Translations under genes and position numbers: made by a program
Source of the DNA: Desulfamplus magnetovallimortis
GTDB taxonomy: Bacteria; Desulfobacterota; Desulfobacteria; Desulfobacterales; Desulfobacteraceae
Length of the DNA stretch: 64,000 nucleotides
Direction of reading: 5' to 3'
NCBI RefSeq assembly: GCF_900170035.1
Contig: NZ_LT828540.1
Span: forward strand, 1 to 64,000
Notes under the pieces: model-generated
Databases searched by the model: none
What the model was told of the DNA's origin: nothing
What the model saw: the letters and a program-made list of their open reading frames with translations, nothing else
Shown: positions 5,206 through 52,644 of the stretch, in pieces
Numbering within the stretch: the first letter of the stretch is position 1
Layout: every line of letters starts with the position of its first letter

Positions 5206-6181
5206 TAAAAAAAATGCCCATATTGGCAAGAATATGTATTGTTATGGGTGCTACTATGTTACCTGAATGTTCAAATGCAATTGCAAACAGCAAACCGCCT
5301 GTTATCTGCACTAAAGGAATGTTGTCGCCACTGAAATGAGATAAAGCAAATAGGGTTGTACTTATCACTACCGCAACACCTGTTCCGTATTTTCTGAAAA
5401 ATGAGTATAGGATCCCTCTGAAAAAAAGCTCTTCTGCAACAGGGCTGACAAGGCCACCTGTAACCAAAAAAAGTACGATGTCCATTTTCTCCTTTGGCAT
5501 TGAAAATAATATAAATTTCAATGGATTTATCCCTGTTAACAAAAGAAAAGCAATTCCTGCCACAAGAGTCATTCCTGAAAAGCATATTGACCAGAGTATT
5601 CCATATTTTATACCTTTTTTAACGTTGTTAATTGAAAAAATTGAATTAAATATAGTATTTTTATCTTTTAAACTAAAATTTTTTTTACCGTGAAAACAGA
5701 CCCGGTTTTCATGTTCGGGGGTGGCCGGTATTGCATCCGGCCATGAGCGTTTACTTGTTAAATATAACGGCCATGGCAGATTCATCTGCAACAACGAAGC
5801 ATGAAAGTCATTTAGAGCCTTAAAAGACAGGGACTTTCTAATAAAAGCTCTGGAAGAAGAGTCAGAAGGAGTGGAGAGATTATTTTTTTCAATTGTTGAT
5901 TTTCTGCGTGAAGCTATCCAGTAGTTTAAAAGATAAAGTATCCCTGTAATTTCAAAAAGCCTTATTAGAAGTAGCGTTCCCATGTGTGAGAAGAGTTTTC
6001 CAAGAAAAGGTGCAAAGGCTTCTGATAAAAAAATTATTGCCAATGCAGTTAAAAGCTCCCCAAATGAGATTTTTATTCTGTCATTTTCCGGCCAGTTTGT
6101 ATTTCCCGTCTTTATGGTTTCCATATATCTACATCTAATTTGATTGTTTAGGAATTGATTTTTAACAACTTGTCCATTCAA
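5180..6181 (-). CDS. CPBP-family intramembrane metalloprotease with repeat insertion
   Basis: Multi-pass membrane protein of the CPBP (Abi/CAAX-protease-like) family. The catalytic motif EELFFR lies in GLVSPVAEELFFRGILY, and the second motif includes FALSHFSGD; a later histidine is in APITIHILANMG. These are the expected glutamate and histidine ligands of the family. The oddity is residues 113-166, which are encoded by two interspersed repeat elements placed back to back (5684-5845). This stretch is polar and rich in Trp, Pro and His, and lies between the first membrane segments and the catalytic core. The start at 6181 has GGGGCGAG just upstream; Met20 is an alternative. It faces thiQ tail to tail. 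Substrate unknown. Confidence 0.82.
   Translation of the reverse strand: MNGQVVKNQFLNNQIRCRYMETIKTGNTNWPENDRIKISFGELLTALAIIFLSEAFAPFLGKLFSHMGTLLLIRLFEITGILYLLNYWIASRRKSTIEKNNLSTPSDSSSRAFIRKSLSFKALNDFHASLLQMNLPWPLYLTSKRSWPDAIPATPEHENRVCFHGKKNFSLKDKNTIFNSIFSINNVKKGIKYGILWSICFSGMTLVAGIAFLLLTGINPLKFILFSMPKEKMDIVLFLVTGGLVSPVAEELFFRGILYSFFRKYGTGVAVVISTTLFALSHFSGDNIPLVQITGGLLFAIAFEHSGNIVAPITIHILANMGIFFINLLHQAF
5684..5754. repeat. TTTAC element (family B) inside the CPBP gene
   Basis: Begins and ends with TTTAC (5684-5688 and 5750-5754). It contains the family landmarks CGTGAAAA, CGGGGGTGGC and a hairpin GGCCGG...CCGGCC (5722-5741). The copy sits inside an open reading frame and does not break it. 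Confidence 0.85.
5762..5845. repeat. HP-1 element (family A/C) inside the CPBP gene
   Basis: Carries ACGGCCATGGCAG, the loop, CAACAACGAAGCATGAAAG and the closing GGGACTTTCTAATA. These match the copies at 16758-16920 closely. It directly follows the TTTAC element; together they occupy about 162 bp, 54 codons, in frame. Confidence 0.85.
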
Positions 6182-8785: not shown

Positions 8786-8852
8786 TTTACCGTGGAAATG
8801 GCTACAAGTTTTCATATTAGGGGATAGCTGCATCGCAGCCATGTCTGTTTAG
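8786..8852. repeat. TTTAC element (family B)
   Basis: Starts at TTTAC (8786-8790) and ends at TTTAG (8848-8852). It has CGTGGAAATGGCTAC, AGGGGATAGCTG and the hairpin GCTG...CAGC, so the tip differs from other copies but still pairs. It lies 50 bp upstream of the esterase start. Confidence 0.8.
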
Positions 8853-16349: not shown

Positions 16350-16479
16350 TTTACCATGAAAAGGACTATTCTTTTTATACTTGGGGATGATTGATACGCA
16401 ATCATGCCCGTTTACCGTGAAAATGACTATCATTTTATACTGGGGGGTGATTGATACGTAATCAATCATAGCTGTTTTT
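16350..16479. repeat. Two tandem TTTAC elements (family B)
   Basis: Unit 1 runs from TTTAC at 16350 to TTTAC at 16411, and unit 2 from that same TTTAC to a T-run at 16475. The hairpin tips are TGATTG-ATACG-CAATCA and a longer TGATTG...CAATCA, different from GGCCGG/CCGGCC in other copies but still paired. Sharing one TTTAC between units fits insertion beside a TTTAC target. Confidence 0.85.
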
Positions 16480-38432: not shown

Positions 38433-38446
38433 TTTAATAATATAGG

Positions 38447-38595
38447 AATTTTCATTTTATCTCTTGCAAAAGCAAGAGATTATGGAAAAGCCAGCTCAAA
38501 GGGCGCTAAGTTCATAGTGTAAAAATTTACATTTTATCTCCTGTAAAAGCAAGAGATTATGGAAAAGCCAGCTCAAAGGGCGCTAAGTTCATAGT
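38447..38595 (+). repeat. Structured tandem element, copies 1 and 2
   Basis: Two 77-bp units (38447-38523 and 38524-38600). Each holds an ATCTC-type hairpin around AAAA (perfect nine-base stem in copy 1, 38459-38480), TTATGGAAAAG, a second hairpin AGC-CA-GCTC-AAA-GGGC-GCT (38489-38507), and AAGTTCATAGTGTAAA. Unknown class; possibly a regulatory RNA. Confidence 0.8.
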
Positions 38596-38663
38596 GTAAA
38601 CCGTCATGGCCGGAGTCCGGCCACCCCCGAGTATGGAAATAATGTATCCATTTCCACGGTAAA
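38596..38663. mobile_element. TTTAC element (family B) inserted between tandem copies
   Basis: A 58-bp element (38601-38658) flanked by GTAAA on both sides (38596-38600, 38659-38663). Against the copy 1/copy 2 junction this is a clean 63-bp insertion. The hairpin GGCCGG-AGT-CCGGCC (38609-38623) forms the tip. On the reverse strand it reads TTTAC-CGTGG...GACGG-TTTAC like its relatives. Confidence 0.9.
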
Positions 38664-38735
38664 AATTTACATTTTATCTCCTGTAAAAGCAAGAGATTAT
38701 GGAAAAGTCCGCCCAAAGGGTGCTAAGTTCTGCCC
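38664..38735 (+). repeat. Structured tandem element, copy 3
   Basis: Same order as copies 1 and 2, but the second hairpin is AGT-CC-GCCC-AAA-GGGT-GCT. The changes keep every pair (Watson-Crick or G-U). It ends about 30 bp before the HTH-EIIA start. Confidence 0.8.
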
Positions 38736-38766: not shown

Positions 38767-39504
38767 ATGAAACGTTCTTTAGAAAATATTGCAAGTCAGC
38801 TTGGTCTGAATCTGGATACCCTGGAGAGATGGATTCGGCAGGGCAAGATACCGGTCAGCAAGAAGGGAAGTATGGGTATCTATAATACTTCCGAGCTTAA
38901 TCGCTGGGCAGAAAAACAGCGGAAAACCTCTTTTTGTTCGGAAAATGGTTCCTCTTCCCAGGATAGTGACTCCAAAGAGGAGGGTAAGCTAATTGATTCA
39001 AATTCCAATGATGACATCGTTGGTCTTCTTCTTTGCGCTGCATTGAAAAATGGCGGGATATTTCATGGAGTTACCGGCAATGGAAAGCATGGAATAATAG
39101 AATCAGCAGTGGAGCATATTCCTGATTATCCAGGAAAAGATAGCAAGGAGATACTTTTACAGTTGATGGAGAGGGAGCGTCTGACCTCAACCGGCATTGG
39201 GCAGGGAGTGGCTATTCCGCATCCAAGAAATCCCATAGCAAATGGCTTTACAGAACCCATGATTGTCACCTGTTTTCTTGAAAATGAGGTGGACTTTGAT
39301 GCCATTGATGACCTTCCTGTTTTTGTACTTTTTTTGATGCTCAGTCCCACTGTTGAAATTCATCTTAACCTTCTTTCCCGTCTATCATTTTGTCTCAGAG
39401 ATCGCTCTTTTATGCGTTTTATAAGGCAGCATCCGGATAAAAAATCTTTTTTAAGCAGGATTAGGGAGATGGAAGAAAAACTGGACAATCCATCAGGAAG
39501 ATAG
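38767..39504 (+). CDS. Helix-turn-helix plus PTS EIIA (PtsN-like) protein
   Basis: Residues 1-60 are a MerR/excisionase-type DNA-binding helix-turn-helix (SLENIASQLGLNLDTLERWI then IYNTSELNRWAEKQ). A Ser/Asp-rich linker follows. Residues 85-240 are an EIIA-Ntr-type domain with the phosphorylatable His152 in GQGVAIPHPRNP. This suggests a regulator whose DNA binding may respond to phosphotransfer. No other PTS genes are in the window. AAGG lies near the ATG. The stop is TAG, and the frame continues open for 81 codons beyond it through a repeat array. Confidence 0.85.
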   Translation: MKRSLENIASQLGLNLDTLERWIRQGKIPVSKKGSMGIYNTSELNRWAEKQRKTSFCSENGSSSQDSDSKEEGKLIDSNSNDDIVGLLLCAALKNGGIFHGVTGNGKHGIIESAVEHIPDYPGKDSKEILLQLMERERLTSTGIGQGVAIPHPRNPIANGFTEPMIVTCFLENEVDFDAIDDLPVFVLFLMLSPTVEIHLNLLSRLSFCLRDRSFMRFIRQHPDKKSFLSRIREMEEKLDNPSGR

Positions 39505-39582
39505 ATCTTTTTAAAAATTCAGAGCAAAAGAGGGGCTAACAGTTCAGGAAAAAGAATACTAACAGTTCATGATAAGAGAATA

Positions 39583-39735
39583 GAGTTAACAGCTCAGGGC
39601 AATAGAAGAGAGTTAACAGCTCGGGGCAATAGAAGAGAGTTAACAGCTCAGGGCAATAGAAGAGAGTTAATGGCTCAGGTCAATAGAAGAGAAGAGCTAA
39701 CACTTAAGGACAAGAGAATAGAGTTAACAGCTCGG
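39583..39735 (+). repeat. 27-bp tandem array after the HTH-EIIA gene
   Basis: Units begin GAGTTAACAGCTC at 39583, 39610, 39637, 39664 and 39721, with a 30-bp variant at 39694. Copies two to four are almost identical. Read in the frame of the upstream gene the unit is ELTAQGNRR. The only open frame through the unit is that one. Confidence 0.9.
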
Positions 39736-39764
39736 AAAAAGAGAGGATAGTTTAAATAGCTGCC

Positions 39765-49834: not shown

Positions 49835-49900
49835 TTTACCGTGAAAATGACTATTATTTTTATATTTGGGGGTGGCTGGATGGCAGCCATGACCGTTTAC
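49835..49900. repeat. TTTAC element (family B)
   Basis: TTTAC at 49835-49839 and at 49896-49900 bound CGTGAAAATGACTATT, TTGGGGGTGGC and the hairpin GGCTG-GATGG-CAGCC. 49901-50079 holds only a short HP-1-like end, CCGCCATGGCTGTTAT (49997-50012). Confidence 0.85.
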
Positions 49901-52389: not shown

Positions 52390-52644
52390 CGGCAAGCTTC
52401 ATTTCCCAGTTTACACTTTCCGGATAGAAAACTCTGAGTTGCGGGAATCTCTCACAAAAAGTGTAAAGTACTTTTGGGGTCAAATGAAGGATGCCGAAAC
52501 AACTTCCTGTTTTTAAATAAATTTCATGCTTCGTTGTGCCCGAAAGGGCATGGGTGTTTTTATATGATAGTCTCCGTAACATCCTGTTTTAAAAACGACT
52601 TTCATTCCTTCGATTGTGGGGGGAAGCCTACATGTACGTTATAA
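52390..52644. repeat. Element D followed by two HP-1 elements
   Basis: D: GCTTCATTTCCCAGTTTACACTTTCCGG against AAAGTGTAAAGTAC and ATGAAGGATGCC (52390-52496). Then an HP-1 copy with CATGCTTCGTTGTGCCC-GAAA-GGGCATGG and another with TGATAGTCTCCGTAACATCC...GACTTTCATTCCTTCGATTGTGG...CATGTACGTTAT. They end just past the restriction endonuclease gene. Confidence 0.8.

Follow-up and report, generated by a model that had tools for sequence, protein, structure and literature searches.

A non-coding two-hairpin mobile repeat inserted directly 3′ of TTT in Desulfamplus magnetovallimortis

Two junctions within one tandem repeat, one of them carrying a short insert that the other lacks, raise the question of what this insert is, where it inserts and what moves it. 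The window, i.e., the whole stretch of 64,000 nucleotides analyzed here (Desulfamplus magnetovallimortis, contig NZ_LT828540.1, positions 1 to 64,000), contains three tandem 77-bp units of a host repeat; the junction of units 1 and 2 reads GTGTAAAAATTTAC, and the junction of units 2 and 3 has the identical letters plus 63 bp. The original prediction had described these junctions as an empty and a filled site lying side by side, and had listed six copies of the same mini-element in the window (5684, 8786, 16350, 16411, 38596 and 49835), four of which end at TTTAC and two of which (16350 and 16411) have one TTTAC in common. All of this was borne out. The features are the following.

38598..38660, minus strand: inserted element of 63 bp, read on the minus strand as A-CCGTGG...GACGG-TTT and absent from the unit 1/2 junction.
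38661-38663, adjoining the insert: pre-existing target TTT, with the cut position in the T-run borrowed from genome G226.
38633..38657, minus strand: hairpin 1, GTGGAAAT...ATTTCCAT, from fold and pair counts.
38606..38624, minus strand: hairpin 2, GTGGCCGG...CCGGCCAT, preceded by a conserved G-run, from fold and pair counts.
38517..38530, no strand: empty site at the junction of host units 1 and 2.
38434..38727, overall: host, a dispersed repeat in three tandem 77-bp units (38434-38510, 38511-38587 and 38651-38727).
5684..5753, plus strand: element copy with a long hairpin 2.
8786..8851, plus strand: element copy.
16350..16414, plus strand: element copy, first of a head-to-tail pair, with one TTTA common to it and the second.
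16411..16477, plus strand: element copy, second of the head-to-tail pair, with the right end TTTT.
49835..49899, plus strand: element copy.

Read on the minus strand from 38660 down to 38598, the order of the insert is A-CC-GTGGAAAT..ATTTCCAT-ACTCGGGG-GTGGCCGG..CCGGCCAT-GACGG-TTT, and the general plan of the inserts is A-CC-hairpin1-GGGG-hairpin2-NNNG-TTT, or equal letters shifted within the T-run. The host unit has a stem ATCTC..GAGAT, then CCAGCTCAAAGGGCGCTAAG; it is a dispersed repeat of the genome, also present at L116, and forms tandem pairs at other places, and the host-repeat copy L065 (the same place as L116) is element-free but without the TTT. Separately, 27-bp tandem repeats (AGAGTTAACAGCTCAGGGCAATAGA) are located at window positions 39536-39752, a short way downstream of the ORF at 38767-39504.

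Copies were sought with the left-end pattern TTTACCGTGRAAATGRNTA, with the mismatch limit stated for each search and the reversed pattern as a control. With up to three mismatches there were 8 matches in the window against 0.21 expected; the weak matches at 49896, 52085 and 53037 were left out of the copy count, and the copy at 5684 was detected by a looser pattern only. When the whole genome (G000; 6.68 Mb, 108 contigs) was searched with up to two mismatches, 587 matches (295 + 292) were obtained against 4 (3 + 1) with the reversed control, so that the further copies expected genome-wide are indeed there. Anatomy was analyzed on a sample of 153 left-end matches in 864 kb of own sequence, made up of the window and 40 stretches of 20 kb, 20 of which had been picked because they had matches. 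A right end was placed for 119 of the 153 by a rule that favours TTTA, and among these 119 copies each of the two commonest sequences occurred 6 times. Another abundant repeat, MITE-like and with the inner arms TTTACACTTTTTT...AAAAAAGTGTAAA, was observed at 52395-52493 of the window, in the L073:7280 region and in L057, L062 and L065; some of its copies start with TTTACCGTGAAAATRRGGCATCCTTCAT and resemble a one-hairpin relative of the element.

Outside this genome the distribution is scattered. With up to one mismatch, left-end matches were found in 8 of 86 family genomes; the genus members with matches were G000 (497), G003 (107), G005 (13) and G009 (34), and six other genus members had zero matches. 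Four genomes outside the genus had 1 or 2 matches each, which is not above the reversed control there. A covariance model gave matches in 13 of 291 order genomes (E <= 1e-4) and a second, two-hairpin model in 15 of 395 phylum genomes (E <= 1e-5), G000 being counted in both cases; the counts per genome from these models are lower bounds, with 18 and 13 candidates scored per genome. Several of the phylum-level matches have a first loop that is tens of bases longer, with unchanged ends, and the weakest of them (e.g., G423, G459 and G491) may be chance matches. The insert is about 53 to 102 bp long across the family and 55-66 bp in the Desulfamplus genome. The family is one of non-coding mobile repeats, present in scattered Desulfobacterota genomes and in hundreds of copies in this Desulfamplus genome.

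The insertion site was defined by filled and empty positions. The element was deleted in silico from 74 arrays with placed ends (arrays at stretch ends were skipped) and the predicted empty site was sought in the sequences analyzed, which gave 117 spanning matches, mostly to self, arrays, duplicate loci or a few abundant host repeats. Nine sites were examined in detail, and five were accepted: a4, which is the window site with its filled and empty junctions; a6 (L044), with 11 paralogous places and TTTA at the junction in 8 of them; a73 (L082), where another copy of the host repeat of a6 carries three element units in an array at the corresponding position, with TTTA at 8 of 9 places; a37 (L067), with TTTA in one of five tandem copies and TTCA in the remaining four; and a51 (L073), in an abundant repeat that has TTTA at 23 of 25 places. 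The candidates a25, a41, a54 and a65 were dropped, as no clean alignment at a TTTA was obtained. A recurrent target, ATCCTTTA/ATCCTTTC followed by AT or TT, was observed inside other dispersed repeats (L044, L082 and loci of G158 and G226).

Empty sites were also found in five other genomes, clearly in G109 and G226 and more weakly in G158 (matches 69-81% identical), G198 (left flank aligned in one comparison, both flanks only in another) and G698 (good left flank, poor right flank). In G109, a host copy with 113 identical flanking bases has 53 bases missing, with one T more in its T-run than simply predicted. The G226 host is a tandem array: one unit is filled by the element, three are empty and read AATCC-TTTC-TTATCC, and further units are without this stretch. 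The G226 junctions are TTTA on the left and TTTC on the right, and the empty site is TTTC; it follows that the cut is after TTT, that the left A is supplied by the element and that the target supplies the base next to the right TTT. The G698 junctions point the same way. Orthologous empty sites in sister species were unusable, because the flanking genes of the genus members are 70-79% identical.

The right ends of the own-genome copies were then compared. Of 61 array-terminal copies, 45 have TTTA as their right end and 16 have something else, i.e., three longer T-runs that end in TTTA, two ends that run into the next copy, three TTTT, two TTTG and six with two T's only, one of the last kind (L081:16122) being probably no true copy; this spread makes TTTA a preference. 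The fifth right-end base is C in 18 of 47 array-terminal copies, and since it varies, the right end does not include this C. Thus the idea of a mobile mini-element that inserts beside a short existing motif is supported by the filled and empty sites, as copies sit directly 3′ of an already present TTT. The 5-bp TTTAC duplication or TTTAC target of the original prediction has to be given up: right ends are TTT plus a variable base, and together with the G226 junctions this replaces the TTTAC or TTTA unit by TTT plus the target base. The second TTT may be part of the element or a 3-bp duplication, with identical letters either way; in G599 the left end is ATTA or GTTA and the right end TTTA in two of three copies, and this inequality counts mildly against a TTT duplication.

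The fold was analyzed on an alignment of 60 of the 102 distinct own-genome copies; the two halves of the element can be written TTTACCGTGAAAAT...TTTTCAT (left) and GGGGGTG...CATGANCGTTT (right). The aligned copies have two hairpins on one strand, in direct orientation and with covarying stems. In the 60 copies 94.4% of the cells are paired, with 70 two-sided changes, and in 48 distinct rows taken from G000 and other genomes 94.8% are paired, with 90 two-sided changes; neither result was matched in any of 500 shuffles, which keep relatedness, and slid controls were far lower (32.7-58.4% paired). Within the 60-copy alignment, the pairs with a two-sided change and the further pair types were not above the shuffled values. 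Hairpin 1 was set by eye and afterwards pair-counted, and RNAalifold, run on the first alignment, recovered only four hairpin-2 pairs. Both hairpins start with GTGA or GTGG, and the closing pair of both stems is mostly G.T (G.U); therefore, the fold is strand-specific. Folding with DNA parameters favours the top strand in 108 of the 119 copies and the bottom strand in 9, and as RNA the mean is -20.1 kcal/mol for the top strand vs -13.2 kcal/mol for the bottom strand (top lower in 115 copies, bottom in 3). No terminal inverted repeat was seen by eye when the left ACCGTGAAAATG was compared with the right CGGGCATGATTG read backwards, and the Rfam search gave no match to the element and one sub-threshold match (E 2.3) outside it. 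Across families the ends are alike and the hairpin-1 loop is highly variable. In elements of ~91 bp in G198 (L129, L160 and L178) the loop of hairpin 1, AAAGCCGGGTTTTTT, and hairpin 2 are complementary, which suggests a possible pseudoknot or alternative fold, and in L191, L193, L206, L210 and L214 (G543 and G698) the hairpin-1 loop includes another palindrome, GTAGGGGCGG..CCGCCCCTAC, which seems to be a nested repeat.

Neighbouring copies follow a strict order. Among the 119 copies, neighbours no more than 200 bp apart form 48 pairs of like orientation and 0 of opposite orientation, and 45 of the 48 abut without a gap and have one TTTA common to both. Neighbours are less alike than shuffled partners (similarity 0.72 vs 0.758, with at least the observed value in 499 of 500 shuffles), and mixed subtypes are common, with A beside B in 27 of the 45 abutting pairs. 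Hence the arrays grew by repeated insertion at the TTT carried by each copy, and spread by tandem duplication is contradicted by the dissimilarity of neighbours in the 864-kb sample; recombinational loss of like pairs may add to the contrast in similarity. The arrays lie mostly between genes: ORFs of at least 100 codons, called crudely, contain 6 of 82 arrays vs 16150 of 20000 random positions. Where the flanking genes are in tandem, the element runs against them in 31 cases and along them in 14 (p = 0.016), or 30 and 16 when longer ORFs are used (p = 0.054), which gives no support for an RNA-level role in the flanking transcripts. The association with GC skew, i.e., with the replication strand, was not significant (p = 0.15).

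What, then, moves these copies? The original prediction had looked to a Y1/RAYT-like transposase elsewhere in the genome; four Y1-domain (PF01797) places and long-RAYT fragments are present there, but none has the element's ends. The four places are one intact IS200-type TnpA (L031; 142 aa; NF033573, 150.7 bits), with hairpins at its ends that differ from those of the element, and three RAYT-like places (L032-L034), of which L032 and L033 have GGGGTCGGGCC-type terminal palindromes and L033 an internal stop. The long-RAYT fragments are a relic in G000:C46, and none of the six own-genome loci (Y1-domain and long-RAYT fragments) carries the element's ends. At L276 (G000:C46) the long-RAYT relic is interrupted by an apparent copy of the MITE-like repeat, and GGGGGACAGG is directly upstream, as in the homologues.

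The search was extended to other genomes, with PF01797 matches at 25 places in 10 genus genomes (the own 4 included), 31 places in ten order-level genomes and 58 places in twelve phylum-level genomes; the loci were scanned for 30 of the 31 and 30 of the 58. TnpB (PF07282) was found at 10 places in twelve genomes, with no match in G000. When 125 Y1/TnpB loci, a set that includes some genes fetched twice, were scanned with the left, middle and right motifs, none had an intact left end on one side and an intact right end on the other, and no scanned RAYT locus had intact element copies on both sides. Furthermore, G107 and G179 (97-98% complete) have element matches, yet neither PF01797 (E<=0.001) nor the long-RAYT profile has a match in them; split Y1 domains can score poorly in the PF01797 search (cf. 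G599 and G727).

A long RAYT of G727 lies between an element-like right half (CTTTCATGCCCTGGGGGTG...) upstream and a complete element that follows 245 bp downstream. The G599 homologue of this RAYT is likewise accompanied by a similar half, here downstream and on the opposite strand; the halves, AAACCAAA..TTT.ATGC.C.GGGGGT, are at L248:1060-1130 (G727) and L249:2470-2530 (G599). However, the complete G727 element sits within that RAYT's own GGGGACAGG...CCTGTCCCC palindrome, and the long-RAYT homologues in G599, G123, G539 and G109 (C147) have no element match, so that the G727 RAYT was set aside as the mobiliser and the element and half beside it are judged, with some reserve, to be coincidental. 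The linkage at L140/L285 (G109), where an element is found at just one side of a RAYT, ~600 bp away, was also rejected. Palindromes of the GGGACAGG/CCTGTCCC type were found near long RAYTs, and some RAYT-like genes lie inside arrays of their own alternating palindromes (L131, L138 and L148 in G198, and L101 in G004).

Insertion at TTT, strand-specific hairpins, ends without terminal inverted repeats, head-to-tail accretion and the presence of some identical copies are direct observations. We consider that an IS200/IS605-like single-strand mechanism acting in trans is the probable explanation, and the resemblance to IS200/IS605 behaviour that had been suggested at the outset has gained support. 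The two hairpins resemble the recognition hairpins at the left and right of an HUH/Y1 transposon of the IS200/IS605 type with its middle removed. We infer the enzyme class, the single-stranded circles, the choice of strand and movement in trans. A Y1-type tyrosine transposase, IS200-like or RAYT-like and supplied in trans, would bind the hairpins of the single-stranded top strand and cut after each TTT; the ends of the element would be joined into a single-stranded circle, and the circle would insert after another TTT, usually TTTA, and often at the end of an existing copy. Several findings speak against this explanation: the 125 Y1/TnpB loci without intact element ends, together with the two genomes without a PF01797 match; the pairing of the GTGA/GTGG foot with the target, which fits some subtypes only; a 3-nt core target that is shorter than those of IS608 or ISDra2; the closeness of hairpin 1 to the left junction, which leaves no room for an IS608-type guide 5′ of it; the replication-strand association, which fell short of significance; a 3-bp TTT duplication, which would produce identical letters; the one-T discrepancy in G109; and the four candidate empty sites that were dropped. 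We regard it as possible, albeit unlikely, that these phylum-wide single-strand mini-repeats depend on a mobiliser other than a recognised Y1/RAYT enzyme, which would be an undescribed nuclease or recombinase acting on the hairpin foot and TTT, or an RNA-copying route.

The same observations bear on other explanations. The two hairpins could be a REP pair, and the element a REP/REPIN-type repeat spread by a RAYT (TnpA_REP): the GTGA/GTGG hairpin starts resemble the GTAG tag of REPs, RAYT relics are present in the genome, the copy number is comparable with the about six hundred REPs given for E. coli K12 in the available text of PMC8266576, and the long RAYTs of G727 and G599 have the neighbouring element and halves described above. 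Against this, the hairpin pair is direct and neighbours stand 48 to 0 in the same orientation, whereas REP doublets are mostly inverted in the available part of PMC3116915; the RAYT flanks examined carry other palindromes (GGGGTCGGGCC in L032 and L033, GGGACAGG/CCTGTCCC near long RAYTs); and the G727 element lies inside the palindrome of the RAYT itself, the other long-RAYT loci having no element match. This reading is therefore held to be doubtful. A classical MITE, moved by a DDE transposase with a 3-bp TTT target duplication, would account for the TTT on both sides of the insertions that have empty sites, but it is improbable in view of the missing terminal inverted repeat (by eye), the strand-specific structure with its conserved G.T/G.U closing pairs and the unequal left and right ends of two of the three G599 copies.

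It is also conceivable that a structured RNA is copied into DNA at TTT|A by a reverse transcriptase, as a bacterial SINE-like element. The much stronger RNA fold of the top strand would suit such a route, and target-primed insertion sites resemble the T-run/A target; nevertheless, the element has no Rfam match and its copies are more often opposite to the flanking tandem genes than along them, and we hold this route to be very improbable. The intergenic preference and the covariation could, finally, reflect a selected regulatory or nucleoid motif that is not mobile and has arisen or spread by recombination. The empty sites are exact, and at one of them the host copy is identical in all other respects; they speak strongly against such a motif, as do the insertion into other repeats and the mixed head-to-tail arrays, so that it can hardly be maintained. 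The IS200/IS605-like mechanism in trans is the explanation that we prefer.

With its empty sites, defined target, strand-specific structure, hundreds of insertions and phylum-wide occurrence, the element is among the smaller well-bounded bacterial mobile elements. It provides a concrete test case for the movement of transposase-free repeats, its ends are distinctive enough to serve as bait for the missing enzyme, and its mixed head-to-tail arrays are an example of array growth by repeated insertion and not by duplication.

Searches of an open-access literature collection gave no paper evidently about this repeat, and the 14-letter left end had a single match there, a microRNA paper. As to known systems, IS608 inserts 3′ of a fixed tetranucleotide, and the targets are TTAC for IS608 and TTGAT for ISDra2 (PMC5934647, as far as its text was available). 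The element is like the IS200/IS605 family described there in its insertion 3′ of a short motif that is kept in the left flank and in its subterminal top-strand hairpins, and differs from it in that it has no gene, has a 3-nt core target and includes the left A in the element. For its guide, IS608 requires room 5′ of the left hairpin, whereas hairpin 1 begins here 3 nt past the left junction; by eye, the guide rule in the accessible part of PMC8266576 is such that GTGA fits TA/TC and GTGG does not, and both subtypes are found at TTTA. With REPs, BIMEs and REPINs, the last being inverted REP doublets, the element has in common that it is short, has hundreds of mostly intergenic copies, has a GTGR hairpin foot and forms clusters (available parts of PMC8266576, PMC3116915 and PMC3733652), and it differs in its direct hairpin pair, its precise TTT site and the finding that no RAYT is clearly bounded by it. 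MITEs are likewise short, non-coding and dispersed, but the element is without their terminal inverted repeat.

The 'terminal-only' PATEs (palindrome-associated transposable elements) of Haloquadratum walsbyi are about 52 bp long, transposase-free and without inverted repeats, and have near-terminal palindromes; strains differ in their insertions in spite of the mostly broken transposase genes, and the available part of PMC3119063 reports no target duplication. Both kinds of element are thus transposase-free, ~50-60 bp long and numerous, with near-terminal palindromes and no terminal inverted repeat. On the other hand, no related coding IS605-type element was found for the Desulfamplus element, the phylum and the sequence differ, and the Desulfamplus element has a TTT target and head-to-tail arrays with one common junction. 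Taken together, the element behaves like a transposase-free 'terminal-only' PATE of the IS200/IS605 type rather than like a REPIN/BIME or a MITE, and we file it as a new PATE-like variant in function, its membership in IS200/IS605 being a plausible rather than a proven assignment.
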